Assembly (NCBI RefSeq): GCF_014696435.1
Contig: NZ_JACJQG010000011.1
Coordinates: forward strand, 1 to 64,000
From: Calothrix anomala FACHB-343
GTDB taxonomy: Bacteria; Cyanobacteriota; Cyanobacteriia; Cyanobacteriales; Nostocaceae
Reading direction: 5' to 3'
DNA length: 64,000 bases
Shown one piece after another: positions 27,001 to 56,438 of this stretch. The notes beneath the pieces were generated by a model, which worked only from the letters and a program-made list of their open reading frames with translations, had not been told where the DNA came from and ran no database searches. How positions within the stretch are numbered: the first letter of the stretch is position 1; each line of letters starts with the position of its first letter. Made by a program: the position numbers and the translations under genes.

Positions 27001-27544
27001 CAACACCCTCAAAGTCTGGAATTGGCAAACTAGTAAACTACTGCGTACCATAGAAGGTCATACTTACTGGGTAAATGCAGTCGCCCTGACTCCTGATGGC
27101 AAATACGCGATTTCTGCTTCCCATGACACCACCCTCAAAGTCTGGAATTGGCAAACTGGTGAACTACTACGTAGCATAAAAGGTCATAGTAGCTCGATAT
27201 ATGCGCTTGCCCTGACTCCTGATGGCAAATACGCGATTTCTGCTTCCCATGACACCACCCTCAAAGTCTGGAATTGGCAAATTGGTGAACTACTGCGTAC
27301 TATAGAAGGTCATAGTGACTCGGTAAATGCAGTCGCCCTGACTCCTGATGGCAAATACGTGATTTCTGGTTTTGTTGACAACACCCTCAAAGTCTGGAAT
27401 TGGCAGACTGGGGAAGAAATCGCCACTTTCACAGGGGAAAGTGCAATATATTGCTGTGCTGTTGCATCTGATGGGGCGAAAATTGTTGCTGGCGATGCAT
27501 TAGGGCGGGTGCATTTTTTGCGCTTGCAAGTCACAAAAGAGTAA
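24050..27544 (+). CDS. NB-ARC STAND NTPase with 14 WD40-type blades
   Basis: A 1164-residue signal-transduction ATPase. Residues 1-75 form a short coiled coil (EQQIQDEETELKRLEQELDT). The NB-ARC core has Walker A GMGGIGKT (129-136, K135), Walker B LLILDDIW (D209/D210) and the GLPLA-like YLPLALAMVG. A winged-helix/helical region runs to about 580. Thirteen exactly 42-residue WD40 repeats (GHS..V.AVALT.DGKYAIS.S.D.TLKVWNWQTGELLRTL) and one degenerate final unit follow, enough for two seven-bladed propellers. STAND proteins of this layout oligomerise when the repeat sensor binds a ligand. No catalytic effector is visible at the N-terminus, so the output must be a recruited partner or the coiled coil itself. 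The ligand is unknown. Confidence 0.92.
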   Translation: MTKRQRLEQQRDTLQADWDRRNKKLTQLRLAFAIEAGVAVKFQLEQQIQDEETELKRLEQELDTIEQALSQTNFDPDRQALGNLTNVPELPPHFLPREEELTPLKQKVLSSTKQPVGITGKSRRVGVQGMGGIGKTVLATALARDEEVRKAFPDGVLWVTFGQTPQILTWQSYLAQALGEKQAAFTEVGLAKARLRELFAEKACLLILDDIWRLDDATAFDVLGERCQMLITTRDGAIVTGLGGEEYQLAILGKQQALELLANWANQPEILQPSPQNDVTLQVARECGYLPLALAMVGAMMRGKPANRWQNILEKLRSADLEKIKQQFPDYPYPDLLKAIAVSVAALDENCQQRYLDFAVFPEDTPIPEAVLQIFWQPLGLDEFDSQDVIDELVSKSLALRDEAGNLRLHDLQFDYVRKQYTTLAKESQGIGVLHNRLLNAYSEKYPEGWHSLANDGYILQNLAYHLLAGGRDGELQQLLCDFRWLQGKLENININALLADYDFLPQDENLQLIQGALRLAAHILNEDKQQLAGQLLGRLLSFEREEIQRLLNQAQQCKTPGLLPQTASLTSPGASLVRTLVGHSNSVNTVALSTDGKYAISGSDDKTLKVWNWQTGELLRTLVGHSDSVNAVALSADGKYVISTSRDTTLKVWNWQTGELLRTLVGHSRSVNAVALSADGKYAISGSDDTTLKVWNWQTGELLRTLVGHSGSVSAVALSADGKYAISGSLDNTLKVWNWQTGELLRTLVGHSGSVSAVALSADGNYAISGSLDNTLKVWNWQTGELLRTLVGHISSVRAVALTPEGKYIISASHDTTLKVWNWQTGELLQTLVGHSDWVRAVALTANGKYAISASRDTTLKVWNWQTGELLRTLVGHSSSVRGVALTANGKYAISASRDTTLKVWNWQTGELLRTLVGHSDWVRAVALTANGKYAISGSDDKTLKVWNWQTGKLLRTIEGHSYSVRAVTLTPDGKYVISGSLDNTLKVWNWQTSKLLRTIEGHTYWVNAVALTPDGKYAISASHDTTLKVWNWQTGELLRSIKGHSSSIYALALTPDGKYAISASHDTTLKVWNWQIGELLRTIEGHSDSVNAVALTPDGKYVISGFVDNTLKVWNWQTGEEIATFTGESAIYCCAVASDGAKIVAGDALGRVHFLRLQVTKE
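25796..27433 (+). repeat. 13 near-identical 126-bp WD40-coding repeats
   Basis: The DNA repeats with an exact 126-base period for 13 units without any length change (13 x 126 = 1638 bases). The part encoding LKVWNWQTGELLRTL is almost invariant, while the bases for the GHSxxV and ISxSxD positions vary. The pattern indicates recent amplification or ongoing gene conversion. Confidence 0.92.
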
Positions 27545-33706: not shown

Positions 33707-35899
33707 ATGGGTAAGGCTATAGGAATTGATCTGGGAACGACTAATTCTGTCGCCGCTTTTAAATTAGCAGAAGTGGAAGTGGTGACAGCAGATGATAATA
33801 CACCCCCAGATAGAAAACTAACGCGATCGCTCGTGGCTGACGAGCAAGGTAAATTATTAGTAGGTGAGCAAGCATATAACCAGCTACGTGCTGATCCGGA
33901 AAATGTGATTATTTCGATTAAACGTCTCATCGGTAGGGGTTTTGCCGATCCCTCTGTGCAGAAACAACAGAGAGAATTTGCTTACAAAATTACTCCCCCA
34001 ACGCAAGGAACAGATAACGGGATTGCGGTATGGCTAGGGGGTAAAGAATATCAGCCAGAGGATATTTCGGCGGAAATTCTCAAAAAAGTGGTGCGAAATG
34101 CCCAAAATTATCGTCAAGCTATCGGTAAAAATGACGAAGTTATCGATCAAGCTGTGATTACTGTCCCTGCTTATTTTAACGACCAACAACGCCACGCTAC
34201 CCGCATAGCTGCTCTTAAAGCCGGACTCAAACCTTTAGAATTACTCCCAGAACCAACAGCAGCAGCGATATCTTATGGTTTTTCTCCCAACGGCGACGAT
34301 TTTAAAACAATATTAGTCTTTGATTTTGGTGGCGGGACATTTGATGCTTCTTTAATTCAAGCGGCGGGAACTTCCTTTATTGAATCGGGGAAAGCTGGGG
34401 ATTTATGGTTAGGTGGAGATGACATCGATTCGCGGATGATTAATTTTGTAAAAGCGCAAGTTTCCCAACAAGAAAAAATCGCTGATATTGATGGTTTAAT
34501 TGCCAAAATGCCCCACTATCAACGAGTCAGATTTAATGCTGATTTGAAAATAGCTGTAGAAAGAGCCAAAGCAGAATTAAGCACGGGGACAGCAGCACAA
34601 ATTGTCCCAGCTACCGCATTATTAGACGAATTAGGCATAGCAATTCCCATCGAAGTTACCATCACCCGCGAACAATTTGAGAGTTTAATTACTGATTTAG
34701 TAGACCGTTCGCTGCAAATTTGTCGCAAGGCTTTAGAATATGCCGAACATCATATAGAAATGGTAGATGTAGTTTTGATGGTGGGGGGTTCTTCACAAAT
34801 TCCCTTAGTTCAACGCAAAGTTAAAGAAGCTTTTGGTAATAATAAAGTATTGATACATCCCCGGCCAATGTACGCTGTAGCTGAAGGTGCAGCAATTGTT
34901 GCGGCTGGACAAACAGATAAAGTAACTACAGTTTCTCGCGATTATTATATTCAGTTACTAGATGGACAATATAAAGTAATTAGTCGAGGTGATATTCTCC
35001 CAGTCGCCACATCACATACTTTTAAAACTACGGCTGACGGACAGAGGTTAATTCACTTTAAGTTTTTCAGTCCCGATGAAAATGAATATTTTGAAAGTAT
35101 TGGCGATATGTGGTTAGGGTTAAATCACTATTATCCAGAGGGGACAGAAATTATCGTCAATTTGGCGTTGGATGAAAAAAATGGCGTGTTAAAGATGACT
35201 GCTACGTTAAAAAATGACCCTTCAGAAAGAGTCAGTTGTACTTTCTCGCGCGGTGGATCGGATGAAAAAATATATCAGGAATTGGAATCGACGATCGCAG
35301 AACTCAACGATCAAGATTTAACCGATATTGGCGTTCAAGAAGCGCTCAAATTAGCTTTACCAGTGGTGCAATTAAGCAACCAAATTATTGATCACCACAC
35401 AGGAGAAGAACGCAGCGATATTCGCGATCGCGCGGCGTACAATCTGCAAAAATTTCAAGTATCCATGTCTAAGCAACGCCTAGCGGCTGATTACTTGATC
35501 AATGAATGCGATCGCATCGTCCAACTTTGTAGCTTTTTAATTTCCGAACCCCAACAAGAACGCTTAAAAAGGCTGAGTCAAGATTTACAAGCCGCAATGG
35601 ATGCTAATGATGTATCTGGGATGGAGTATCACAGTGAAAATGCGGAAAGGGAACTCAGCAATCTCCCCGATCGCGTCAAAATCATTCAAGCTAGTCTCGC
35701 AAGTATCCGCCAAGCCAATTCAGTTTCACCCACCCAAGCCAATGGGATGTATGACAAGCTGTTGCGAATGCTAGATGCGATGGAACGGGAAGAAAAACCA
35801 GAAGCGGAACGTTTGTGGAGTGAACTACAACCAGATGTACAGCGTTGGTTAAATGAGGAATCTGCTGGTAGAACTATTGTCACAGGATTGACAAAATGA
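33707..35899 (+). CDS. Hsp70-family chaperone (DnaK paralogue)
   Basis: A 730-residue Hsp70. The ATPase domain (about 1-390) has phosphate loop 1 GIDLGTTNSV, phosphate loop 2 VFDFGGGTFDASL, the EPTAAAISYG connect motif and the adenosine loop VLMVGGSSQIPLVQ. A substrate-binding beta domain follows (about 400-515), then an extended helical region of about 200 residues. The usual DnaK C-terminus is missing, and the protein is about 90 residues longer than typical DnaK. It overlaps the zinc-ribbon/LysM gene by four bases (ATGA). Downstream on the same strand are TPR-like, J-like and GrpE-like genes, so it probably works in a dedicated chaperone complex rather than as the housekeeping DnaK. Clients are unknown. 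Confidence 0.94.
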   Translation: MGKAIGIDLGTTNSVAAFKLAEVEVVTADDNTPPDRKLTRSLVADEQGKLLVGEQAYNQLRADPENVIISIKRLIGRGFADPSVQKQQREFAYKITPPTQGTDNGIAVWLGGKEYQPEDISAEILKKVVRNAQNYRQAIGKNDEVIDQAVITVPAYFNDQQRHATRIAALKAGLKPLELLPEPTAAAISYGFSPNGDDFKTILVFDFGGGTFDASLIQAAGTSFIESGKAGDLWLGGDDIDSRMINFVKAQVSQQEKIADIDGLIAKMPHYQRVRFNADLKIAVERAKAELSTGTAAQIVPATALLDELGIAIPIEVTITREQFESLITDLVDRSLQICRKALEYAEHHIEMVDVVLMVGGSSQIPLVQRKVKEAFGNNKVLIHPRPMYAVAEGAAIVAAGQTDKVTTVSRDYYIQLLDGQYKVISRGDILPVATSHTFKTTADGQRLIHFKFFSPDENEYFESIGDMWLGLNHYYPEGTEIIVNLALDEKNGVLKMTATLKNDPSERVSCTFSRGGSDEKIYQELESTIAELNDQDLTDIGVQEALKLALPVVQLSNQIIDHHTGEERSDIRDRAAYNLQKFQVSMSKQRLAADYLINECDRIVQLCSFLISEPQQERLKRLSQDLQAAMDANDVSGMEYHSENAERELSNLPDRVKIIQASLASIRQANSVSPTQANGMYDKLLRMLDAMEREEKPEAERLWSELQPDVQRWLNEESAGRTIVTGLTK

Positions 35900-36393
35900 A
35901 GACTATCCTTAACTGTCCTGTGTGCGGTTATCAAGAAGTTACCAGTTATACTTGTCCCAACTGCGATACTGACTTATCTGTAATTCGCATCCTCCAAGAA
36001 TTACCTGCTGTTAAAACCACAGTTTCCGCAGCCAAATTTCACGCTTTACCTTTAGCAATTGCGTTGTTGACATTGCTTTTAGGTATGTGTTTGGGATTTG
36101 GAAGTCGGTATATCTTCCCAACAACCCAATTACACGCCTTAACAGTTCCTTCTCCCCACCCAATTGTCAACAGTCGCGTCAGTCTCAACCCACCCTTTAA
36201 TCAGCCTCCGGTAGTCATGAACACAATTACCTATACCGTACAATCTGGAGATCATCTGAGTGCGATCGCCGAAAAATTTTGCGGTAGAGGAACACCTTGG
36301 GAAATCATGGTGACAGCTAACCCCCACCTGCAAAATCGCGAGAATCACATAAATATCGGTGAGGAATTAAATATACCCAAGTGTCAGGAGTAA
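35896..36393 (+). CDS. Zinc-ribbon, membrane-spanning LysM protein
   Basis: A 165-residue protein with three parts. An N-terminal zinc ribbon has C7/C10 and C20/C23 (CPVC and CPNC). One transmembrane segment lies at about 50-75 (PLAIALLTLLLGMCLGFG). A C-terminal LysM domain at about 110-160 runs from YTVQSGDHLSAIAEKFC to NIGEELNIPKC. The order places the ribbon in the cytoplasm and LysM outside, where LysM domains bind peptidoglycan or other GlcNAc polymers. It is translationally coupled to the Hsp70 gene through the ATGA overlap, which implies a stoichiometric link: it may tether the chaperone to the cell-wall side of the membrane. That function is inferred from context; such a pairing has no textbook precedent that I know. 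Confidence 0.87.
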   Translation: MKTILNCPVCGYQEVTSYTCPNCDTDLSVIRILQELPAVKTTVSAAKFHALPLAIALLTLLLGMCLGFGSRYIFPTTQLHALTVPSPHPIVNSRVSLNPPFNQPPVVMNTITYTVQSGDHLSAIAEKFCGRGTPWEIMVTANPHLQNRENHINIGEELNIPKCQE

Positions 36394-36406
36394 AGATGGT
36401 AGTTAA

Positions 36407-36430
36407 GAGTCAATAGTCAATAGTCAATGG
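36407..36430. repeat. Tandem 7-bp repeat (gtcaata)n
   Basis: Three to four copies of gtcaata/gtcaatg follow the LysM gene. Together with the caaatga array at 36565 they occupy much of the 209-base gap inside the chaperone locus. Confidence 0.8.
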
Positions 36431-36564
36431 TCAAGAGTTAATGAGTTGAAATGCAATTAGTAAGTCAGTAATTAAACCAAATTATATTACCAAACGTAAA
36501 TCAACCTGAAACCTTTACCAATGACCAATGACAACTGTACAGACAAGAGTTATCGCGTCTCTAA

Positions 36565-36602
36565 CCAATGACAAATGACAAATGACAAATGACAAATGAC
36601 AT
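36565..36602. repeat. Heptanucleotide STRR (caaatga)n
   Basis: Five copies run right up to the start codon at 36603, so they form the ribosome-binding region of the TPR-like gene. The normal Shine-Dalgarno signal is absent there. Confidence 0.85.
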
Positions 36603-39341
36603 ATGAGCATCCTTGATAATTTCAACACCTTCAGTAAGATTTTGCTGGGTGTGGGGATAGTTGATGGTTGGAAATACGTAGAGCAATCTCAACAAATTCA
36701 GAAAAGAGCCGAAAAATTAGCGCAAAACAAGCAATTACGAGAAGCAGTTAGTATTATTCAAAAATCTCTAGCTGTATGGTCAAAAAAACCTGGTTTTGGC
36801 GAACGGTTGCTGCGTCAGTGGTTAATGAGTAATTTATTAGACAATTTAAGTCAGCAATTACAACAGTGGAATCAACAAATCCGCGAAGCAGATAAACTAG
36901 CTTTGCAAGGGGATATGTTGCTGAAAGAAGATCGTGGCGATCCTCTGGAAACTCAAATTCTTGTGAAAGCGATCGCTATTTATCAAAGCTGTAGCCAAAT
37001 TATCCATGATGAGCGGGTATTAAAGCTCATCAACCGATGTCAGCAGGAAATACAACGCAGACAGCATTTTCAGACGTTGGTAACTAAAGCACAGTCACAC
37101 GCGGAGAATAAATATTTTCAAAATGCGATCGCAGTTTATCAAAAAGCTGAAGAATTATATTCTACAGCAGCTTTACAAGAGGCGATCGCGGCGGCTAAAT
37201 CCCAAGTAGAGCAGGAAAAAATTTATACTTCGGCATTGCAAAGGGCGCAACAAGCCCACAATCAAGGAAAATTAAAAGGAGCGATCGCTGTTTTAGAAAC
37301 TGCTTTGAGTAATTTTCCCCGTCAGGATGGATGGAAATTATTACAAGAATTACAACAAACAATCAAAGGTAAAGAAAAGTATCGTCAAGGGTTAGCAGCA
37401 GAGAAAGTCAATGATTTACCAGCTGCGACATCTTTGTATGAAGCTGCGAAAACCCTTCTACCCAATCCTACAGAATGTCAAATCAGGTTAGGAATCATTG
37501 CGATTAAAACCGAAAATTGGGCGATTGCTTTATCTCATCTATTCAATTTACCAGGAGAACAAGCGGCTTATCTGCGGGGATTTGTCTATGCTAAACAAAA
37601 GAATTTACAACAAGCTTATCGAGAATGGCAAGGAATATCTTTTAATGAAATTAGCGCCCAAAGAGAAATTCTCAATACTTTAGCGCAGCGTCAACGCCTG
37701 CTTTATCTAAAGAATATTGAGGAATTTGTGAATCTGGGAAATTTGGAACTAGCGAAAGCTGCGAGTGCAGAATTTAGCCATACATTTGGTTTCGATCCTT
37801 TAGTAGAAACCAATCTCAAAGAACACATTATACCCAGAATAGATGTGGAACTTTGGCAAAATTCCGAGCGCCAGAAAATCGTTAAACAAATTGAAAAAAA
37901 TTGGATTTCTCAACCTAATATTACCAATTTACATAATTTATTAGTAGCTATTTATTACAGCGAGCATTACGATTTTCTCCATCTCTCACATTTGATAGTT
38001 ATCTTATCTACAGCCTTAGCAAATTTAACGGCAGATCCTCTGCTGCAAGATATACCTTGGCTAGGAAATCAATCTATTGATTTTCAATTAATATCCTTAG
38101 AATTAAAACGGCGATTAGAAGCAGCAATTGATAGCTATAAAGATAGAGATATTCCCACCTATTTAAATTTACGCGATAAATATCGTTTAGAATCAGTAGC
38201 CTTAAAATTCATGGGCGAACCTGCGCAAAGAGGAATGACAGTAAATAATCTATTTATCACACCAGGTTGTTATCAGCATTATATTTCTCATTGGCGAGAT
38301 AAAGTAATTGAACGTATAGATATAAAAAATCAACTTCTCCGTTCTCTGTATACACCTTGGGGATTAGCAATAGCTGCTTGTTTATCAGCAGATAGTCAAA
38401 GAGCAATTAAACTTAAAACCTTACATCAAACTACTAATAATATTGATGATATTGAACAATTTTCTCAAAAATTTATCGCTTATCATGAAGGTTGCCATTA
38501 TCTGAGTCATAAACAATGGCGTCAAGCAATTACTCCTTTAACAACAGCAAAATCAGCAATTATCAATCATCTAGATTGGCAACAAGAAATAGATAGACTA
38601 GCTGGATTGCAACGTCAAACCATCTCAGCAATTGAAGAACATTTAGAATTTGCTCAATTTTGGTATGAAATTTTAGGTAGTCAACCTGCTAGAAGTTATT
38701 TATCCGAATACAAAGCCGAGAAAATTCGCGAGCAAATTTATCAAAGAAAAATTTCTTTAAATGAGGCTACAAAAGAATTGCAAGAAATCAAAAAAATCGA
38801 CCCGAAAAATCCGATAGTACTGGATTTAATCGCCATGATTGAATTTCAGCAAGAAATAGAAGTAATTGAGAACTTGTTGAAAACTAATCAATTCGATCAA
38901 GCAGTTAAATTGGCTAAAAAATCTCAGCAACCACGCATCCGTTATATTGTGGCAGAAATTTGTATTGATATATTACTTAAAGGCTTTCAAAATGGAGAAT
39001 TAAGTATTCCAGAAATTTCCAATTTAGGTCAATGGGCTTACGAACTTTGTCCCGAACAAGATAATATCAAAAAAATCTATCACTTTAGTCAAGAACTGAA
39101 GGAAATTCAGGAACTCATGAAGCGCGATCGCTTTGAAGAAGCAATTCGCAAAGCCCAAAAATCACAACATGAATCAACTCGCCATTATGTTGCAGAGTTA
39201 TTTATTATGACCATAGTTAAAGGTATTCAAAAGAAAGATTTATCTTGGGAAATAATTAAGCAGTTAGGAATTTGGGCTTACGAACTTTGTCCTAACGAAC
39301 CTGCTTTTCAAGAAATTTTCCATAGCCTCAAGTTACGTTAA
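36603..39341 (+). CDS. Large TPR-like helical repeat protein in the Hsp70 locus
   Basis: A 912-residue, almost entirely helical protein without signal peptide or clear membrane segment. TPR-like pairs of helices are visible at about 25-60 (AEKLAQNKQLREAVSIIQKSL), 160-260 and 680-760. The C-terminus holds a duplicated module of about 80 residues: LLKTNQFDQAVKLAKKSQQ... and LMKRDRFEEAIRKAQKSQH..., each ending in WAYELCP. I recognise no enzymatic domain. TPR proteins commonly bind Hsp70 or its clients, so with an Hsp70 upstream and J-like and GrpE-like genes downstream a scaffold or client adaptor is the best guess. It starts within a heptamer repeat and 209 bases after the LysM gene, so internal promoters are possible. 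Confidence 0.85.
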   Translation: MSILDNFNTFSKILLGVGIVDGWKYVEQSQQIQKRAEKLAQNKQLREAVSIIQKSLAVWSKKPGFGERLLRQWLMSNLLDNLSQQLQQWNQQIREADKLALQGDMLLKEDRGDPLETQILVKAIAIYQSCSQIIHDERVLKLINRCQQEIQRRQHFQTLVTKAQSHAENKYFQNAIAVYQKAEELYSTAALQEAIAAAKSQVEQEKIYTSALQRAQQAHNQGKLKGAIAVLETALSNFPRQDGWKLLQELQQTIKGKEKYRQGLAAEKVNDLPAATSLYEAAKTLLPNPTECQIRLGIIAIKTENWAIALSHLFNLPGEQAAYLRGFVYAKQKNLQQAYREWQGISFNEISAQREILNTLAQRQRLLYLKNIEEFVNLGNLELAKAASAEFSHTFGFDPLVETNLKEHIIPRIDVELWQNSERQKIVKQIEKNWISQPNITNLHNLLVAIYYSEHYDFLHLSHLIVILSTALANLTADPLLQDIPWLGNQSIDFQLISLELKRRLEAAIDSYKDRDIPTYLNLRDKYRLESVALKFMGEPAQRGMTVNNLFITPGCYQHYISHWRDKVIERIDIKNQLLRSLYTPWGLAIAACLSADSQRAIKLKTLHQTTNNIDDIEQFSQKFIAYHEGCHYLSHKQWRQAITPLTTAKSAIINHLDWQQEIDRLAGLQRQTISAIEEHLEFAQFWYEILGSQPARSYLSEYKAEKIREQIYQRKISLNEATKELQEIKKIDPKNPIVLDLIAMIEFQQEIEVIENLLKTNQFDQAVKLAKKSQQPRIRYIVAEICIDILLKGFQNGELSIPEISNLGQWAYELCPEQDNIKKIYHFSQELKEIQELMKRDRFEEAIRKAQKSQHESTRHYVAELFIMTIVKGIQKKDLSWEIIKQLGIWAYELCPNEPAFQEIFHSLKLR

Positions 39342-39384
39342 ATAAAGGTGATATATAACTTGAAAATGGGCATGGGACATTTAT

Positions 39385-39410
39385 TAGAGACGCGATTAAT
39401 CGCGTCTCTA
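39385..39410. repeat. 26-bp perfect palindrome
   Basis: Half-site tagagacgcgatt followed by its exact complement, identical to the palindrome at 17535-17560. It lies between the TPR-like and J-like genes, where the transcript could form a 13-bp hairpin. Confidence 0.85.
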
Positions 39411-39466
39411 CAATTGTCCTCCTTGTTCTCCTTCCCTTGTTCTCCTTCGCTTCCTTTCCTGATCTT

Positions 39467-40081
39467 ATGGAACACAATCCCTATGATATTTTAGGCGTTA
39501 CCCCAGTCGCCTCAAAAGCCGAAATTACTAAAGCTGTCGCCTTAGCCATGAAGCGCAAGCAATATCCTGTAGATGTCATTGCTAAAGCGCAAAAAAGCTT
39601 AATGAAGCCGGAAGAACGGATTATTGCTGATTATTTACGTCCGATATTACCGCCGGTTAAGCGTTTCAAAAATAGCGATTTATCGGCTTTACAACAACCA
39701 GTACCAAAATTGGTATTATTAGCTCAGTTAGATGGATTAGAGCAAGCGATCGCTCAAGCTAGCCAACAAGAGCTGATAGAACGAGAATATATACCCTTGA
39801 GCTTATCAGAATTAATGACAGAAGGTATCGCTGCTTGCAAACAAGGCCGTTATCCTCAAGCGATTAAATATCTAGAAGAATATACTCAAGGCTGTACAGA
39901 TAAAAATCACAAAGATTATATTCAAGCCCAAATGTGGCTAATTAGAGCTTATCATCTGGGTAGAGATTTGCAAAGAGCGATCGCCCTTTGTCAACTATTA
40001 AGCAATCATCCCCACACTCAAGTACAAACTTGGGTAAAGAAAACTTTATCTATGTTATCTCAAGAGGTTTCTCATGTCTGA
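39467..40081 (+). CDS. Degenerate J-domain protein with TPR-like tail
   Basis: A 204-residue protein from ATG 39467; an in-frame start at 39437 adds ten unconvincing residues. The N-terminus resembles a J domain: NPYDILGVTPVASKAEITKA matches helix I and II, and KAQKSLMKPEERIIADYL matches helix III-IV. The HPD tripeptide that triggers Hsp70 ATPase is missing; the loop reads RKQYPVDV. The rest contains a TPR-like unit (GIAACKQGRYPQAIKYLEEY and a following pair). It overlaps the GrpE-like gene by eight bases. In this Hsp70 locus it probably acts as a J-like adaptor that binds without classical stimulation, or as a pseudo-cochaperone. The J assignment is by motif only. Confidence 0.75.
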   Translation: MEHNPYDILGVTPVASKAEITKAVALAMKRKQYPVDVIAKAQKSLMKPEERIIADYLRPILPPVKRFKNSDLSALQQPVPKLVLLAQLDGLEQAIAQASQQELIEREYIPLSLSELMTEGIAACKQGRYPQAIKYLEEYTQGCTDKNHKDYIQAQMWLIRAYHLGRDLQRAIALCQLLSNHPHTQVQTWVKKTLSMLSQEVSHV

Positions 40082-40652
40082 ATCACCCCAAAACACCAGC
40101 AAATTTTGGGATTGGATAAAATCGAAAATTCTCGGTTTTAATTCTCCAGAATCTTTGTCTGGTGAAAATACAGGATCTGCAAATAAAAATCACTATTTAA
40201 TTACCCAAGAAAAACGCGATTTACTCATTAGCGAAATCGGCACAATTCAAAAAGAAAATATTTTATTACAGCAATCCTTGCGAGAACAGCAAACCCAAAC
40301 TGTAGCCAAAACCGAGGATTTATTTTTAGAACTTTTAGAAGTTTCTGATGCTTTAGAAAATTTATTAGAATATTTAGAAAATAATACTGAACCCAATCAA
40401 GAGTTTCTCCAACGTTTACCTAAATCTGTTGGCGCAGTACATCGCAAGTTTTTGAGTATCTTAAAAAAGCGTCAGGTTTTACCGATTGAACTCCAAGATA
40501 CCCAACCAGATTTTACTGTATGCCGAGTCGTCGATCGCGAAGTCCGCAACGACCTCGCAGACCAAACAATCACTAAAGTTGTCCGTCAAGGCTTTCGCTT
40601 ACAAGAAAAGATTCTCCGCCCCACAGAGGTAATTACATCGAAACCAGGTTAG
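40074..40652 (+). CDS. GrpE-like nucleotide exchange factor
   Basis: A 192-residue protein. A coiled-coil helix at about 45-85 (LISEIGTIQKENILLQQSLREQ) leads into a region that aligns with GrpE: the helical LLEVSDALENLL, then VGAVHRKFLSILKKRQVLPIE. It ends with the beta-domain signature ITKVVRQGFRLQEKILRPTEVIT, which resembles the canonical GrpE ending GY-x6-LRPA-V. GrpE releases ADP from Hsp70. The N-terminal 40 residues are variable. The start overlaps the J-like gene, implying translational coupling. As the last gene of the cluster, it completes an Hsp70/J/GrpE set, supporting a specialised chaperone machine rather than a lone Hsp70 paralogue. Confidence 0.82.
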   Translation: MSESPQNTSKFWDWIKSKILGFNSPESLSGENTGSANKNHYLITQEKRDLLISEIGTIQKENILLQQSLREQQTQTVAKTEDLFLELLEVSDALENLLEYLENNTEPNQEFLQRLPKSVGAVHRKFLSILKKRQVLPIELQDTQPDFTVCRVVDREVRNDLADQTITKVVRQGFRLQEKILRPTEVITSKPG

Positions 40653-47344: not shown

Positions 47345-49255
47345 TTATTTGCTCGCCGACAAATTGAGATAATAATTAAACCGATCGCGCAATTGTTCAA
47401 CTGTGAGATTTTGAGTCCAGTATTCAACTAAAGCATGACCAAAAGCCCAGGTATCGCTGGCGGCTGTATTTTCTACCAATAACGGCCAAAGGGTTAATAA
47501 ATCAAAATTGCTTGATTTTCCAGTATTTAAGAGAGAGAAAAGGTCATAAGCCATTTGCAACTTCCCAATGACAACGGGTAACTGTTCCACGGGAATTTTT
47601 TCTGCTAACAAGTATGCCAGAGTGGGCGAACCGGTTGATAGGGTAGAAATGAACTGGAGAACGGGACTTTTCAGCAGCGATGTCAGTCCTTGGGTTGTCG
47701 CCATCTGGAAGGTGTAATTATCAATAATTTTGGCAGCTTCAACGGTACGAGCTTCGAGATTACGTAAAAAACGCGCCAGACGCAGTTGTTTTGCAGGTGC
47801 GATCGCTGCTACTAATCCTAAAGATAAAGCGTCAATTCCCCAAGCAGTGCGATTAGTTTTGCTATCGCTTGTCACCACAGGTAAAACTAACTTGGAGAAA
47901 TCCCCCAACAATTGCGCCCGATATTGTGTAGCTTCGCGGATGGAAATTTCCTTGGCGCGATCGCCCCATTCCCAATCATAAGGCGGTTCCCATTCGCGGA
48001 TCGGACGCAGGCGATCGACTTGAGTAACTATAGTAATTACAGGTAAATCTTTAACTTCCGCCTGTATATCTTTGAGAAAATCTACATCCATTTGCAAGGC
48101 GGGATCTAAAGCGGGGGTAACTAATAATAGTAAATCTGCCTTTGTCGCATAGTCTAAAACTAAGTCGCGAAAATCTGCGCGGTTAACTTGCTCATAACCT
48201 GGAGTATCCCATAATGTCAGGGTTTCTTTATTGGAAGTTTGCCATTGGTAATTTTGAATTTTATCGGTACTAGGTAAGACATCAACAGCAGCTAATTCTG
48301 AGGAAAATAAACTGTTAATCAAGCTGCTTTTTCCCGAACCGGTGCGCCCTACCAGCAGAATACTGACAGGTTTTTGCGCTACAGTTTCAGCAGGTTCAGC
48401 TTGGGCGAGGATTTCTTTTAACGTTTGCGTTTTCGCTTTGGGAAGGGTAGGAGTTGAAGAAGAAAATTCCGCCTTTGGTAAAGTAGTACCACTATAAAGA
48501 GCGATCGCTTGACGGCACAAATTACGTAAAGCTGCCTCTCGCAGCATTTGTCCTAAATTCACCAATAATTGCTGATTTGCTTGGCTTGTAGAGCGCTGAC
48601 TCGCTTTTTTAGCCACAGCCGCCGCCGGATTTAATAACCATTGTGCCCCATTCCAAGCTTGAAAGAGTTTGCGGGCGGATGGTTCTAACTTGCGATAGAC
48701 TTCGTAAGCTTGGTAAGCTTGCCCAACTGTGACTTGATTTAAAGCAGGTGATAGCTTTTGCATCCATTGATCCATATCATCTACTGTTCCCCGAATTAAC
48801 CCGTAGGCTTGGGTAACGTAAATATTTAATAGGGGATATTTAACTTCAGGATGGTAAATATGAGCGATCGCTACCACTAAATTTTGGCATCGCGTCCAGA
48901 AAGTTACCCAATCTTCCCAAATCGGGCGATCGCTTTGGGATGCTTGCAAAATTTCCGTTAAAACAGTTTGAGCTTGACTAGTAGCGTCATTTCCGGCAGG
49001 TAATTGGTTATCATCTACTGTAGCGGCTAATTCTTCATTAACTTGAGCTAATACCGCCTCTAATTGTTCTACCTCTGGTCGAGTCCATTTAACCAGCAAC
49101 CAACGCCACCCGACAAATAGTAGGGTAAATACAGCCCAAATCCAATTAATTCCCCAAGTATGGATCTGGGAACCTGCGGCTACCAGCAAGAAAGTAACAA
49201 TTAACGCGATCGGCGCTGCTAATATAACCCATTGCCACAACTTTAAACGCACCAT
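47345..49255 (-). CDS. Membrane-associated Era/dynamin-like GTPase
   Basis: A 636-residue GTPase. Two N-terminal hydrophobic segments (WVILAAPIALIVTFLLVAAG and INWIWAVFTLLFVGWRWLL) anchor it in a membrane. A helical region of about 200 residues follows. The G domain has G1 GRTGSGKSS, G3 DTPGYEQ and G4 TQVDR (a variant of NKxD with Gln), in a fold close to Era/YfjP-type GTPases. A C-terminal helical region of about 200 residues may bind a partner or membrane. The biological role is not established. Another P-loop GTPase with a DUF697 tail is encoded at 54771-56123, and the two may have related membrane functions. Confidence 0.88.
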   Translation of the reverse strand: MVRLKLWQWVILAAPIALIVTFLLVAAGSQIHTWGINWIWAVFTLLFVGWRWLLVKWTRPEVEQLEAVLAQVNEELAATVDDNQLPAGNDATSQAQTVLTEILQASQSDRPIWEDWVTFWTRCQNLVVAIAHIYHPEVKYPLLNIYVTQAYGLIRGTVDDMDQWMQKLSPALNQVTVGQAYQAYEVYRKLEPSARKLFQAWNGAQWLLNPAAAVAKKASQRSTSQANQQLLVNLGQMLREAALRNLCRQAIALYSGTTLPKAEFSSSTPTLPKAKTQTLKEILAQAEPAETVAQKPVSILLVGRTGSGKSSLINSLFSSELAAVDVLPSTDKIQNYQWQTSNKETLTLWDTPGYEQVNRADFRDLVLDYATKADLLLLVTPALDPALQMDVDFLKDIQAEVKDLPVITIVTQVDRLRPIREWEPPYDWEWGDRAKEISIREATQYRAQLLGDFSKLVLPVVTSDSKTNRTAWGIDALSLGLVAAIAPAKQLRLARFLRNLEARTVEAAKIIDNYTFQMATTQGLTSLLKSPVLQFISTLSTGSPTLAYLLAEKIPVEQLPVVIGKLQMAYDLFSLLNTGKSSNFDLLTLWPLLVENTAASDTWAFGHALVEYWTQNLTVEQLRDRFNYYLNLSASK

Positions 49256-50879: not shown

Positions 50880-51318
50880 AATCACGAAAAATCGAGTTTT
50901 AGCCTTGCATGAGTAACGCTTAATTCAAATATCATTTGCTTACTAGGCAATTGGCTTTTTAGTAGGCTATTATATTGTGAGCGAAGTATAAAAATTTGCT
51001 AAACACTCTTCCAGTAATCAATGCTTTCTGGAGGGCAATATTAATATAGTATATTTATATACTATCGTTTTTGGCTGACTCTTTGTTAAAGCAGTCACAT
51101 TCGATGCAAAATACTCACTTAGTACAACTTCAACAAGCATTTTTCTTGTTCTAGTTAGCTTTATATGCAACTAATTTTTCCCAATTAAACAGGGTGAATA
51201 AAGATGAATAGTATTATGCAAAATGCTCATATCATTAAATATTTTAATTTCACAATTATCAAAATCAATATTGTTTAAATAATTAATGTAATGATCATAT
51301 TTTATATGAGGTATATTC
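50880..51318. other. AT-rich intergenic region upstream of the RelE-helicase operon
   Basis: A perfect 8-bp inverted repeat (atagtata/tatactat) at 51046-51065 precedes the operon by about 250 bases and could be an operator. A 24-codon frame at 51204 is too weak to call an antitoxin. I see no other gene. Confidence 0.45.
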
Positions 51319-53646
51319 ATGCCTGTTTATCTCGTTAAAATTGTTCGCGCTGCTGTTCGAGAAATCCAGAAATTACCACATGAATATTTCAAGCTGGTAG
51401 CAGAAATAATTAAAAAAATTAGTGAAGGTAACCTGGGAGACTATCGAAAATTAGAAGGTTATCAAGATTTATGGAGAACTAAGAAACATGATGTGAGAGT
51501 GATTTGGACAAGAAATCAAGAAGAAATATTAATATTAATAGCCGGACAACGTAAAGATATTTATAAAAAAATTGTTGAGGATAGAAATAGAAACCCAGAA
51601 ATAGATATATCTGATGTACTTGAACTGGGAGAAAAAACAGTAGAACATATTCCTACCTATGAATGGAATCCTAAACAAATTAATTCTTGGAATCAATTTG
51701 TTTATGGTGGTTATTTATATTCACCTGTTTTGACTCAAGAACAAAAAGAAATTTTTCAGGAAGTAAGAAATCCCTCACCCAATCCTGTATCAAACCATAG
51801 TAATATTAATAGCCTTTTATTACAAAGTGCCCCAGGTACAGGTAAAACAGTATGTGCAGCTTTAATGGCTTGTGAATTATATGTAAAAAACTATTGGAAT
51901 ATTGCTTTAATTCTGCCCGAAAACCTATCTGCTGAAATTAAAGAATTCACTGAAATTAAAGAAATTTTACAGCTTGGAGAACCTAATTTTTTTGTCGGAA
52001 CTTTTGCAGAATGGTTGCATCAAGCTGCACCAGATATATATAAGACAGTAGCAACTGTATCGGAAGAGTTACAGGCTCTACAAGCAGAAGCGCGAAAAAT
52101 TCATGTGATTGATAACAATGAAGATTTGAATATAAATGATTTAATTTTATTTAGAGGATTTATAGCCAAAAAACACAAGCATGAACAATCCAATCACCCC
52201 ATTTATCGAGAAAATGAGCATTGGATTGGAGAACTTAAAAATATTACATTACCTAAATTGCAGCAGAGATTAGGAAATAAAAAAATCTGGATAGATGGAG
52301 TAAATGCAATTACAGAAAATGCTCTTCCTTTACAGCAGAGTAATACAACACTGTTCATATTTGATGAAGCTCAAGATTATCTCATAGATGAAATTAATGC
52401 TATTGTTAACATGCTGGAGAGATGGCAACAGGATAATAATCACACTTCTATACTTTTTCTATTGGGTGATATGAATCAAAGAATTACACCCATAGATTTT
52501 AATTGGGGACATTTACAACTGAATAAAAGACACAATCTTAAATATAATTATCGCAATACAAAATATATTCTAGAATTCGCTAATAGTTTTCATGCATTTG
52601 CAAAAATAGCAAATTCAGGAGGTAAAAAATTACCTGAAGTCAGTCAGCCTGAATATGCTTTTGAACAAGGTGAACCTGTGAGGATTTTAGAATGCACATC
52701 ACAAGAAGAAGCGCTGCAAATTATTAACGATTTAAGCGATAAAGTAAGATATACCTGCGCTTTAGAACAGCATTCTATATTGAGACTTCTTTCTAGCCAA
52801 GTCAAGCTAATTTATCAAGATATTCCTGAACAATATAGTAATCTTCCAGGATTAGATTATATAAAATTCAATCAAGCTAAAGGAAGAGAGTTTGATGCTT
52901 GTGTTGCTTTCTGTGTATTTGCAGGAGCAGGAAAACCATCATTTGAAGAAGCTAATAATTGGTACACAATTTTTACTAGGCCGCGTTACCGATTACTTGT
53001 AATTGCAACTACTGATGAAATCGAAAGAATTGGAAGATTACATTTTCAAAAATGTCAGTTTTTTAATAGTGCAAATGCAGATACTCTTGATTGGATTACA
53101 GAGTGGGCAAATGGAGAACATTTATTTAAAGATATCACAGGATTGTGTAACATAATTTACGAAGGTTTGAGTAATCTACCTATACAAATTTATTGGGATA
53201 CTTATGCTGCATTTAGGCTAGCAAGAATTGATAATGACACAGTTACCCAAATTGAGGAGCAAGCAATTAAAATTCTGGCAAATCATTCTAGAGAAATTTT
53301 ATATGAAGAATTGCAGCAAATTCAGCAAATTGATAGCCCTAGCGATCGCATTCCTCTGCAATGCTTACTCTTAAGGGCTTTGGGTAGTTCTTGGGAAGCA
53401 GTTAAAGTTGCATCTGAGTTGCAAGATGTTAATCTTCAAGAATATCAAGACTTAATATTAAGAATTGCTTCTACGCTGCAACAAAAAGGACTTTTATATG
53501 AAGCTGCTAGAGTACGCGCAAAAATTGGAATGCAGATCCCCGACGATTTTCCCTTTAGACAGGAAATATCAAATCAGGAAGGAAATTTAGTATCCCTACT
53601 CTGCAATGCAGCTATAGAAAAGATTGCTCATACAGGTGAATTATGA
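51319..53646 (+). CDS. RelE/ParE-like domain fused to UvrD-like superfamily 1 helicase
   Basis: A 775-residue fusion. Residues 1-90 resemble a RelE/ParE toxin: a helical hairpin (VREIQKLPHEYFKLVAEIIKK), then the beta-strand core YRKLEGYQDLWRTKKHDVRVIW and IAGQRKDIYKK. From about 165 there is an SF1 helicase/ATPase: Walker A SAPGTGKT (170-177), Walker B IFDEAQD (D349/E350), motif III GDMNQ (383-387), motif IV NYRNT (410-414), motif V KGREFD (521-526) and motif VI TRPRYR (553-558). A helical C-terminal region follows. It overlaps the next gene by four bases (ATGA). RNA cleavage or ribosome/RNA binding gated by nucleic-acid-driven ATPase activity would fit a defence or stress role, but this is inference. 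No antitoxin gene is adjacent. Confidence 0.87.
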   Translation: MPVYLVKIVRAAVREIQKLPHEYFKLVAEIIKKISEGNLGDYRKLEGYQDLWRTKKHDVRVIWTRNQEEILILIAGQRKDIYKKIVEDRNRNPEIDISDVLELGEKTVEHIPTYEWNPKQINSWNQFVYGGYLYSPVLTQEQKEIFQEVRNPSPNPVSNHSNINSLLLQSAPGTGKTVCAALMACELYVKNYWNIALILPENLSAEIKEFTEIKEILQLGEPNFFVGTFAEWLHQAAPDIYKTVATVSEELQALQAEARKIHVIDNNEDLNINDLILFRGFIAKKHKHEQSNHPIYRENEHWIGELKNITLPKLQQRLGNKKIWIDGVNAITENALPLQQSNTTLFIFDEAQDYLIDEINAIVNMLERWQQDNNHTSILFLLGDMNQRITPIDFNWGHLQLNKRHNLKYNYRNTKYILEFANSFHAFAKIANSGGKKLPEVSQPEYAFEQGEPVRILECTSQEEALQIINDLSDKVRYTCALEQHSILRLLSSQVKLIYQDIPEQYSNLPGLDYIKFNQAKGREFDACVAFCVFAGAGKPSFEEANNWYTIFTRPRYRLLVIATTDEIERIGRLHFQKCQFFNSANADTLDWITEWANGEHLFKDITGLCNIIYEGLSNLPIQIYWDTYAAFRLARIDNDTVTQIEEQAIKILANHSREILYEELQQIQQIDSPSDRIPLQCLLLRALGSSWEAVKVASELQDVNLQEYQDLILRIASTLQQKGLLYEAARVRAKIGMQIPDDFPFRQEISNQEGNLVSLLCNAAIEKIAHTGEL

Positions 53647-54488
53647 ATGATAAATCTCCCACAGATTTACAAGTTTCTCAAGAACTAGAAGCTTTATCTA
53701 TAGTTATTAATCAATCTATAGATAAAGCTAAAAATATTCTCGAAGAAGCTAAAGAAATTGATGAAGTTAGAGAACTGATTCATGAAATTCACTTGAGCCG
53801 AGAAGAACTATTAAACGTAAATAATGATTTAAAGAAACATGAAGATAAAGTATCAAATTATTTATCCGCAGCGAAAGAACTTCAAGATAAGTTACAAATA
53901 TTACAAGAAATACCAAGACAACTGCATGAACTTGGTATAGAAGAACATATTTTACAAGATTTGCAACTAGTAATTAATGAAATTAATCATGCTAGAATAG
54001 AAAGTCAAACTTCAACCGAAGCATCTCACAATATATTATTACAAGTACAAAATTATCTGCAAGAATCTCAGGATATAGTTCAAGAATTGCAGAGTAAAAA
54101 AGAAGTAATTGAAAACTTAAATATAGATATAGATAATAAGCTGATCCAAATCAGAAATATCATAGATACATACGATGAACAAAATCGATATACCCAAAGT
54201 TTAATACAGGAATTAAATCTAGTTATACAAACGATTGGGGGTGTGGAAGAAATTCAAAAATTCATTCAAGATATCAGAAATACTCGCTTAGAAATGCATA
54301 ATTCTGAACAGCAATTAGTATCTGCGCGACAACAAATGATTGCTGTGCAAGGTTTTGAGGATTATTTAAATAAATTCCAGAACATTCGTAATCGTAAACA
54401 ACTATGGCAATGGTTATGGGATGAGTTAGGATTGCTGGGAGTGATAGTTTATTTACTCAGTTTGATAACTCCAAAAAGAAGAAGATGA
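53643..54488 (+). CDS. Coiled-coil protein with C-terminal membrane anchor
   Basis: A 281-residue protein that is almost all coiled coil, rich in Glu, Gln, Asn, Ile and Leu (LQVSQELEALSIVINQS at the start, EIHLSREELLNVNNDL in the middle). It ends with a short hydrophobic segment (LLGVIVYLLSLI) and a basic tail TPKRRR. This topology suggests a long cytoplasmic rod anchored by its C-terminus. It overlaps the RelE-helicase gene by four bases, so the two are translationally coupled and probably form a complex. It may act as the sensor, the membrane tether or the neutralising partner of the RelE-like domain. I recognise no family. Confidence 0.8.
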   Translation: MNDKSPTDLQVSQELEALSIVINQSIDKAKNILEEAKEIDEVRELIHEIHLSREELLNVNNDLKKHEDKVSNYLSAAKELQDKLQILQEIPRQLHELGIEEHILQDLQLVINEINHARIESQTSTEASHNILLQVQNYLQESQDIVQELQSKKEVIENLNIDIDNKLIQIRNIIDTYDEQNRYTQSLIQELNLVIQTIGGVEEIQKFIQDIRNTRLEMHNSEQQLVSARQQMIAVQGFEDYLNKFQNIRNRKQLWQWLWDELGLLGVIVYLLSLITPKRRR

Positions 54489-54770: not shown

Positions 54771-56123
54771 CTAACGTTTAATTCCCTTAAACCTTTCTTG
54801 TGCTGCTTTAAAAGCTTCTTGCATCACAGATTGAATCTGATTCGGGTCTGGTTTCTTCCCACCCATCAAGTCACCAAAGTAGACACAAGCTGTTTCACCG
54901 AGTGACCAGGTGTAAGCAGCAGCCCAGGATGCAGCAATTACGCTACCAAAACCAGGAACGAATTTAATTAACTCCCTTGCTATGGCTTGAGCGAGAAAAC
55001 CACCTGCGATCGCACTGACAATTCCCCCGGCTTGAGATGGTGATAATTGCTTGCCGTATAAGTTACCTAAAGCTGTTACCATAGATACTTGCAAAGCTGT
55101 TAATACTGGCATAGTTGCAAACGGTAATGGTATAGCAGCTACAGTTGCAGCCATAATTGCAAAGGGTAAAATGTAACGTCGTCCCGTATCGCGGTAAAGA
55201 TTACCCAGTTGCTTACCGGTTTCCTCCCGATCCAATAATTGATAAATCGCTTTGGCTTCGGCTTCGGGAAGTAGTTCGGCTAAGTTATCGCGTAATGCTT
55301 CTAAGCCGTAAAATACTGGATTGTAACCATCTTCTTCTAAGGTAAAGTCAATGAGAACGGAACGATCGCAAACCTTCGCAAAATCTTCTTGAATCGCGCC
55401 AAAAGCCCGATTAATTTCCTCATAATCAGGCGGATAAGCTGGATGATCGACTGTCCCCGGCGGATACACCTCATGCAAACAGGTAACCGCTAACAAACAG
55501 GGAATATCTGGATACTGTTGACGTAATTGTTGAGCAATTTGACGCAATGTGTCAGTAGCAAAATCGTTAATTTTTACAGTCAGAATCAAAACTCTGGCGC
55601 TGCGAGTTGATTTTTCTAAATCGCCAACCAATTCAGTAATAATTTCTTGCGTATCTTGTTTGACATCGCCTAATCCTACCGTATCCGTAAAAACCAGCAA
55701 AGGTAAGTCATCAGCAGGATAATTGTAGCGCTGAGTATGTTGGGTGTGAGGGCGGAATCCTTGACCGACAATATCGGCGGAAACTCCTGTTAATCCCCGC
55801 ACAATCGAACTTTTACCCGCTTGGGGTTTACCAATTAACAAAGCTTCCGTAGTTGGTAGTTCGCGGCGCACCGTCTCCAAAATCTCAGCAATTTGAGTTT
55901 CGCTGACACTAAACCATTGCACAACCGTCTGTGCTAATTGTTCTACGGGTAATAATTGTCCTAGACGCGGTGTTGCTTTGCGCCAAACATCAGCAATCCG
56001 GTTTTTCCAAGAATTCTCAGCAGGTAGCGCCGGAGTTAGATTTTCCGATTCTAGGCGATCGCCTGGAGTTTCACTTTGCTGAGAATCTCCTGGTAAGGAA
56101 TCAGCATCACGTTGCTCAGTCAT
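54771..56123 (-). CDS. P-loop GTPase with DUF697 membrane domain
   Basis: A protein of about 450 residues from the ATG at 56123; an in-frame start at 56153 adds ten residues. The G domain has G1 GKPQAGKSS, a G3-like TDTVGLGD and ILTVKIND, with the switch region IVGQGFRPHTQHTQRY. The C-terminal part matches the DUF697 membrane module: ILPFAIMAATVAAIPLPF, ALGNLYGKQLSPSQAGGIVS and FVPGFGSVIAASWAAAYTWSLG, with two to three hydrophobic stretches. DUF697 GTPases are membrane-bound proteins of uncertain role. It resembles the GTPase at 47345-49255 in general design but has the membrane part at the opposite end. Confidence 0.88.
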   Translation of the reverse strand: MTEQRDADSLPGDSQQSETPGDRLESENLTPALPAENSWKNRIADVWRKATPRLGQLLPVEQLAQTVVQWFSVSETQIAEILETVRRELPTTEALLIGKPQAGKSSIVRGLTGVSADIVGQGFRPHTQHTQRYNYPADDLPLLVFTDTVGLGDVKQDTQEIITELVGDLEKSTRSARVLILTVKINDFATDTLRQIAQQLRQQYPDIPCLLAVTCLHEVYPPGTVDHPAYPPDYEEINRAFGAIQEDFAKVCDRSVLIDFTLEEDGYNPVFYGLEALRDNLAELLPEAEAKAIYQLLDREETGKQLGNLYRDTGRRYILPFAIMAATVAAIPLPFATMPVLTALQVSMVTALGNLYGKQLSPSQAGGIVSAIAGGFLAQAIARELIKFVPGFGSVIAASWAAAYTWSLGETACVYFGDLMGGKKPDPNQIQSVMQEAFKAAQERFKGIKR

Positions 56124-56438
56124 TGCTATGAAAACGGTAGATAGAAGCCACACTAAATCCTGTTTATTATTTTAGGATGTGCTGTAGTCAGTTACTATTT
56201 GTCAATGGTTATATTTGCCGTAAAAGCATTGGTATGCAGATGAGAGGTTTTGATTTACAGTTAAAACTCTTCGTCTAACTGCCTAAGTACACCATTTTAT
56301 TAATTCATAGCGAATTGGTTTGGGAAATACTCTGCGAAACTTTGCGCTAACCTCCGCGTTCCTTTGCGTTGAAAAAGTTATGAACTTATGCAAAGCAGTA
56401 CTAAGTAAATCTGCTAAATCTCTAGATCGCCTGTATTT

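Follow-up and report, generated by a model that had tools for sequence, protein, structure and literature searches.

What can a RelE-type toxin domain do when it is joined to a helicase and has no small antitoxin gene beside it? The question is raised by two overlapping genes at positions 51319 to 54488 of a 64,000-nucleotide stretch of the cyanobacterium Calothrix anomala FACHB-343 (contig NZ_JACJQG010000011.1, positions 1 to 64,000; the whole stretch is called the window here). One gene encodes a fusion of a RelE-type domain with a superfamily 1 (SF1) helicase and the other a coiled-coil partner. The pair is best read as a horizontally mobile cyanobacterial two-gene module, most likely antiviral, in which a helicase organised by the partner is predicted to gate a RelE ribonuclease; the probability of this reading is put at about 0.5. 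A defence or conflict module is the likeliest interpretation because pairing is strict, the active site and the motor are conserved and the two genes move as a unit.

The RelE-helicase gene (51319..53646, + strand) is an open reading frame (ORF) for 775 amino acids plus stop and is present once in the 9.24 Mb host genome. Relatives were found, and its ratio of nonsynonymous to synonymous substitution rates (dN/dS) is 0.28-0.31. The partner gene (53643..54488, + strand) encodes 281 amino acids. Both ORFs lie where an initial annotation of the window had placed them, sharing the four bases ATGA. About 440 bp of DNA separate the pair from an upstream aldo/keto reductase gene, and the ORFs overlapping this gap (50880-51318) reach at most 27 amino acids on the + strand and 50 on the - strand; thus the upstream side has no small antitoxin gene of the ordinary kind. 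On the downstream side the pair's first gene is followed by the 281-residue coiled-coil gene and not by the small antitoxin of a type II toxin-antitoxin (TA) system. The initial annotation was right, then, that a separate small antitoxin gene is missing, but the coiled-coil partner could fill that role.

The N-terminal RelE-type ribonuclease-like domain (residues 1-90; 51319..51588, + strand) was identified through its family. A domain profile built from 29 relatives (alignment A3) matched 11 PDB sequences at an expectation value (E) ≤ 1, all 11 of them RelE/YoeB-class toxins. The best matches were Rv2866 (2e-6), PHS013 (6e-6), RelE 9g12 (1e-5) and E. coli RelE on the ribosome (0.003). Three of the 11 (3g5o, 1wmi and 2khe) carry generic names but are RelE proteins. 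The window protein alone gave a sub-threshold NCBIfam RelE/ParE score (E 0.05) and no Pfam RelE/ParE match; the RelE claim therefore rests on the family profile. A ParE-like, gyrase-directed domain was considered and rejected. No ParE chain occurs among the PDB matches at E ≤ 1, and Pfam ParE_toxin is matched weakly by four of the 29 A3 members (E ≤ 0.1, best 1.9e-4) and not by the window member. As the domain is RelE-like rather than ParE-like, gyrase poisoning is unlikely. Of the RelE/ParE-like N-terminus originally suggested, the RelE half is borne out by profile and predicted topology, but the ParE half, with its gyrase poisoning, is not, the PDB matches all being RelE/YoeB-class.

The active-site positions of E. 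coli RelE, K52, K54, R61, R81 and Y87, fall on R53, K55, R60, R78 and Y82 in the profile alignment. Within the domain, R60, R78 and Y82 alone never vary: they are kept in 29/29 members of A3, 32/32 rows of alignment A2 and 19/19 rows of a wider set (A1). Position 53 is arginine in 31 of the 32 A2 rows and position 55 is lysine or arginine in all 32. In A1, R53 and K/R55 are each found in 16/19 rows; the three rows without R53 are of the Synechocystis type, where the alignment around 53-55 is uncertain. An AlphaFold model of the helicase protein (32 sequences, mean predicted local distance difference test score (pLDDT) 86.4, predicted template modelling score 0.82) places a strand at 5-9, helices at 10-18 and 21-35, strands at 42-44, 52-54, 59-65 and 69-77 and a helix at 78-84, with block pLDDT of 84-91 over residues 5-84. 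This order of elements is presumably that expected of RelE. Helicases fill the list of folds matching the whole model and no RelE chain was seen in it, which says nothing either way on the RelE fold. In two pairwise comparisons dN/dS was 0.20-0.23 for the RelE domain and 0.28-0.34 for the helicase core, so purifying selection on the RelE domain is at least as strong as that on the core. By profile and model, the N-terminal domain is thus predicted to be RelE-type, with the active-site positions kept.

The UvrD/HelD/GajB-like SF1 helicase core (about residues 135-590; 51721..53088, + strand) carries the complete motif set that had been claimed for it: APGTGKT, DEAQD, LLGDxNQR, NYRNT, KGREF and YTxxTRxRxRL are kept across 32 aligned relatives. 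Motifs I, II, III, V and VI, together with the UvrD fold of the AlphaFold model, place it in the UvrD/Rep group of SF1. The proposed RelE-helicase fusion is hence upheld by the A3 profile, the predicted topology and the SF1 motifs. An all-helical C-terminal region (about residues 600-775; 53116..53643, + strand), seen in the AlphaFold secondary structure and containing conserved segments, is a possible partner-binding region.

Relatives of the module were collected as 57 non-redundant loci. Three were left out of the pairing count: contigs end within 120 bp in L043 and L082, and L074 runs off its contig. In all 54 loci with room downstream, the next sizeable gene encodes a coiled-coil protein, and in 49 of the 51 loci measured (longest ORFs taken) its start lies between -40 and +66 bp relative to the stop codon of the helicase gene. 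The 54 loci do not amount to 54 independent events, since the same two genomes supplied L082/L086 and L074/L085 as contigs and the copies in Synechocystis and Calothrix are closely related. Conserved pairing had been named at the outset as a test that could refute the proposal, and homologues do carry the partner.

A profile of nine partner N-termini, run against the 1078 ORFs of all loci, gave 54 matches at E ≤ 10, or 47 without duplicate loci. All are the gene next downstream of the helicase; nine of the 47 are training rows and four have E 0.02-0.7. Seven of the 54 partners rest on weaker evidence: those of L022, L025 and L026 (E 2e-4 to 1e-3), L044 (2e-4), L042 (0.09), L083 (recognised by the PADLOC model C3a168) and L053 (from a BLAST match of its duplicate, L031, at 4e-5). 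With filters off, a broader partner profile matched 85 of the 1078 ORFs at E ≤ 5, the best non-partner among the matches listed being a helicase (E 0.28); it misses the partners of L053 and L083. Divergence of partner and helicase is correlated (Mantel r 0.82, n = 43, 0/2000 permutations), as simple co-inheritance would also predict.

Pairing extends to a distant subfamily, in which the L042 and L044 helicases (about 900 amino acids) share 25% and 23% identity with the window protein; a third member, L154, was found using L044 (29%). RelE-like N-termini were recognised by eye in all three (Pfam ParE_toxin gives 0.004 in L044 and no match in L042), and a coiled-coil gene adjoins all three, seen by eye in L154 and at E 0.09 only in L042. 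Searches with the partner alignment (A4) gave matches at E ≤ 0.01 in 31/291 genomes. Fifteen of these are helicase genomes with the match beside the helicase; ten of the 15 had contributed rows to A4, so only five are independent. The others are G118, which has the distant subfamily (E 0.0099), a true orphan in G116 and 14 weak matches (E ≥ 9e-5). Four of the weak matches (G260, G192, G070 and G024) and a second match in G238 were judged to be other proteins. No helicase remnant was found beside the orphan partner in G116. The orphan partner at L117:9962-10801, in a genome of the same family, has a hydrophobic tail and no helicase nearby.

No conserved third gene was found in the 54 clustered loci (duplicates and L042-L044 left out). 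The next commonest neighbour clusters, assigned by eye, were an ABC transporter (10 loci), a pentapeptide protein (nine) and a histidine kinase (eight). As these were judged species synteny or generic, the module comprises two genes. Weak short-repeat arrays were flagged in L051, L057, L070, L084, L085 and L086.

The partner starts with a conserved motif, continues as a rod whose length varies greatly and often ends in a hydrophobic tail; across the 54 loci the predicted proteins span 140-652 amino acids. In the window copy, hydrophobic periodicity is close to the coiled-coil value (best angle 104.5 degrees, with no null run). Its N-terminal motif (53643..53762, + strand), of the type (T/S)D.E.A..LE.L...I..GI in alignment A4, is a candidate docking or antitoxin helix. 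Its hydropathy reveals a C-terminal tail with basic residues at the end (54405..54485, + strand), a candidate tail anchor. Such a tail occurs in 38/54 partners, always as the sole hydrophobic segment, against a background of 34/807 ORFs (107/807 if other segments are permitted). A similar tail is found in 11 relatives even though the proteins span 191-637 amino acids. Since the tail of the window copy is short, its insertion into the membrane is likely but not proven. The membrane tether initially claimed is thus supported by hydropathy for 38 of the 54 relatives, but not for the Synechocystis and Picosynechococcus copies, which, with two distant-subfamily members, are among the 16 without a tail.

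Distribution is patchy. The nearest relative found, in Calothrix brevissima NIES-22, is 95% identical, and the helicase occurs in 20/388 genomes of the class (two of the distant subfamily, one truncated). A pattern-limited scan of GTDB genomes gave 42 loci, one of them outside cyanobacteria proper (Ca. Tanganyikabacteria). At the site between the aldo/keto reductase and the GTPase, the module is absent from two of the four other genomes of the genus (G389 and G431), where only 125 and 27 bp separate the matches to the flanking coding sequences; both module genes are present in G460 and G477. The two genes are gained or lost as a single unit. Their G+C contents are 0.33 and 0.30, whereas the genes on either side have 0.44 and 0.45. 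Synonymous divergence (dS) is also lower in the module than in its flanks, both against G460 (0.31 and 0.39 vs 0.70 and 0.69) and against G477 (0.09 and 0.06 vs 0.14 and 0.12). Low dS and AT-richness fit recent transfer, though compositional bias could account for part of the pattern. In a tree of 46 intact copies, the Picosynechococcus plasmid copy groups with Leptolyngbya foveolarum and then with Synechocystis. Random spread through core genomes, with the partner lacking, had been given as an outcome that would count against the proposal; what was found is a patchy, mobile distribution with the partner kept. A phage origin was considered and set aside: a search of 50,697 phage records found no relative, and IMG/VR gave no confirmed one, although patterns from one protein would detect close relatives only there. 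Annotations split the RelE-helicase into two ORFs in Synechocystis PCC 6803 (L022:12004-14391) and Picosynechococcus PCC 7002 (L024:10001-12384) but give it as a single ORF in PCC 6714, B12 and PCC 7003.

Some copies keep company with CRISPR genes. Type III Cmr/RAMP-type genes lie near at least seven of the 57 loci, from three lineages (four Synechocystis, two Picosynechococcus and one Leptolyngbyaceae), and are annotated III-B in PCC 6803 and 6714; the 6714 copy is also near BREX genes. The other 50 loci showed no CRISPR genes by annotation or similarity to genes of the Synechocystis plasmid pSYSA, within flanks of 0-10 kb and with no Cas models run, and none was seen by eye among the window ORFs. 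Cas10 is matched in 17 of the 20 helicase genomes and in 196 of the 368 others (Fisher p 0.004, kinship ignored); G222, G229 and G118 have the helicase and no Cas10 match. The PADLOC model C3a168, listed only as 'unknown function', matches the two Synechocystis partners tested (L022 and L083; E 2e-159 for the Synechocystis partner), each directly downstream of a RelE-helicase relative. It misses the window partner (no match at E ≤ 0.1) and the Picosynechococcus partner L023 (none at E ≤ 0.01), and the Synechocystis form lacks the hydrophobic tail.

On pSYSA the order is Csx3-AAA, two-ORF helicase, 377-residue coiled coil, small ORF and cmr genes. This fits slr7080, slr7081, slr7082, slr7083 and ssr7084, the tags other than slr7080 being assigned from order and strand; slr7080 is given as Csx3-AAA in the accessible text of PMC9676260. 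According to the accessible text of PMC7002697, Slr7083 forms filaments in vitro, is located peripherally in the cell, interacts with itself and with HmpF, to which it binds, and has an effect on the motility of one substrain. The main text of that paper names neither slr7081 nor slr7082. In the literature searched, any of the tags slr7081, slr7082 and slr7083 occurs in only two papers, both concerned with Slr7083.

Several known systems share parts of this layout. The Gabija helicase GajB lacks a RelE domain and works with the nuclease GajA as its partner; no GajA-like OLD nuclease match occurs among the window neighbours scanned. RelBE/HigBA-type TA systems have the RelE-type domain and the active-site positions in common with the window protein. 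They differ in that the toxin-like domain is here fused to a helicase and paired with a long coiled coil instead of a small antitoxin that binds DNA. The domain order is shared with ArmD of ARMADA type II, a proven anti-phage system; the accessible text of PMC12458937 describes ArmD as a GajB-like UvrD helicase with an N-terminal RelE-like domain, whose Walker A mutant loses anti-phage protection. ARMADA, as presented there, needs ArmA, ArmB and ArmC, none of which is among the window neighbours examined. In type II, ArmD is preceded by a BrxHII-like helicase, a PglX-like methylase and a YprA-like helicase, whereas the window neighbours are an aldo/keto reductase, the partner and a GTPase. The boundary of the window module as a unit is marked by empty sites. 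No tail-anchored coiled-coil partner is described in that part of PMC12458937.

UvrD helicases beside giant DEAD/DEAH helicases were seen on plasmids of Pseudanabaena, E. coli and Cylindrospermopsis (L169, L170 and L171). By context these are probably ARMADA type II loci, with an N-terminal domain that the profiles used do not recognise as RelE (Pfam ParE_like 0.04). Compared with the window protein, such presumed ArmD proteins, chosen by gene context only, gave a helicase BLAST match of E 0.057 with one, and the N-terminal profile comparison was not significant. CARF-RelE effectors (Cami1 and SyCsm6) likewise hold RelE inside a larger regulated protein, at type III CRISPR loci (PMC11229360 and PMC9676260, accessible text). 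They sense cyclic oligoadenylates through CARF, for which the window protein, with its helicase, gave no match. The main text of PMC11980606, as far as accessible, does not contain the word 'helicase' and leaves out multidomain RelE proteins with no identified antitoxin. The initial annotation knew of no named system with this layout, and the union of RelE-helicase and coiled-coil partner was indeed not found among the matches listed in the literature searched. Its pieces are known separately (ArmD, C3a168 and Slr7083), and the module is a variant of the RelE-helicase fusions in which the partner is unrelated.

How might such a module act? The partner would form filaments or a lattice along the envelope, as Slr7083 does in published work, and its N-terminal motif would hold the RelE-helicase there. 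The helicase would bind foreign or stalled nucleic acid, and its ATP-driven movement would free or deliver the RelE domain, which would cut mRNA, probably on ribosomes, and slow translation in the infected cell. A more specific and less probable version is a so far unrecognised immune system of cyanobacteria in which an envelope-bound coiled-coil lattice holds the helicase-gated RelE ribonuclease, the partner being both scaffold and antitoxin, with local shutdown of translation where phage DNA enters.

A number of observations weigh against an antiviral module of this kind. Sixteen of the 54 partners have no tail by hydropathy (one of them, in L049, is truncated where its contig ends). In the window's lineage the tail (41 codons) is without clear purifying selection, dN/dS being 0.61 and 1.55 (against G460). 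The immediate neighbours of the pair are an aldo/keto reductase and a GTPase widespread in the family (106/118 genomes), and the phage records and IMG/VR yielded no viral relative. The literature searched yielded no data on phage protection, RNA cleavage or interactions of the helicase. ARMADA, with its similar fusion, is described as protecting non-abortively (PMC12458937, accessible text). Deletion of Slr7083 is reported, in the accessible text of PMC7002697, to affect motility and cytokinesis in one substrain. This points to a role outside defence; on that plasmid the neighbouring helicase appears in the annotation as two ORFs.

One alternative makes the coiled-coil partner simply the antitoxin: its N-terminal helix would cover the RelE active site, the membrane rod would store the complex and loss of the partner would free the toxin. 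Strict pairing of often overlapping genes would be expected, and no helicase with room downstream lacks a partner while one partner (in G116) lacks a helicase, as a toxin and its antitoxin would be expected to do; knock-outs of Slr7083 were also viable in a species where the reference plasmid has the helicase as two ORFs. However, this asymmetry between the two genes is based on a single orphan, no antitoxin family in Pfam or NCBIfam is matched by the partner at E ≤ 0.1, and a long variable rod, often with a hydrophobic tail, is to our knowledge unlike known RelE antitoxins, so that this explanation seems rather improbable. The RelE domain might instead have lost its nuclease and serve the helicase as a ribosome- or RNA-binding clamp. 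E. coli RelE has K52 and K54 where R53 and K/R55 stand here, and three of the 19 A1 rows lack R53. SyCsm6, a CARF-RelE protein of pSYSA, had no RNase activity in vitro (PMC9676260, accessible text). With R60, R78 and Y82 invariant in 32/32 relatives and the domain under purifying selection, a mere clamp is quite unlikely.

A cellular role outside defence would have a HelD-like helicase clear stalled RNA polymerase or ribosomes, the RelE domain trim mRNA and the partner serve as a motility-linked cytoskeletal anchor. For a housekeeping or stress factor, presence in only 20/388 class genomes, an empty site in two of four other genomes of the genus and dS below that of the neighbours are hard to accommodate, and we regard it as unlikely. 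Finally, the C3a168 label of the Synechocystis partner (E 2e-159) could mean that the pair serves type III-B CRISPR systems as an accessory effector, as could the seven or more loci near Cmr/RAMP-type genes in three lineages and the excess of Cas10 in helicase genomes. Yet that excess comes from a Fisher test that ignores kinship and leaves three helicase genomes (G222, G229 and G118) with no Cas10 match, the other 50 loci show no CRISPR genes in the flanks covered, and the window proteins have no match to CARF, SAVED or another second-messenger sensor. A role as type III CRISPR accessory is very doubtful.

Elsewhere in the window, no RNA element reached gathering score, and repeats in the locus were limited to weak, chance-like pairs. 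Immediately downstream, a dynamin/era-like GTPase gene (54771-56153, - strand; PADLOC LeoBC 1e-6) looks core rather than defence, as it occurs in 106 of 118 family genomes. Another dynamin/era-like GTPase lies at 47345-49255 (- strand; PADLOC LeoBC 2e-14, LeoA 3e-14). By eye, 24050-27544 (+ strand) encodes a 1164-residue NB-ARC-type NTPase, NLR-like, with near-identical C-terminal WD40 repeats that are apparently fast-evolving. The run at 33707-40652 (+ strand), also read by eye, encodes a DnaK-like protein, a LysM-like small protein, a 912-residue TPR protein and DnaJ-like and GrpE-like proteins, and is possibly a chaperone-based conflict cassette.

The antiviral two-gene module proposed here links three threads that are treated apart in the literature searched: the RelE-helicase fusions of ARMADA, the unexplained type III CRISPR-associated family C3a168, and Slr7083, a filament protein of the model cyanobacterium Synechocystis that has been studied for motility. 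If the proposal is true, Slr7083 would be the scaffold of a defence module, a role directly testable in genetically tractable laboratory strains. The family would then be a case in which a helicase and the place in the cell, and not a small antitoxin, control a RelE effector.

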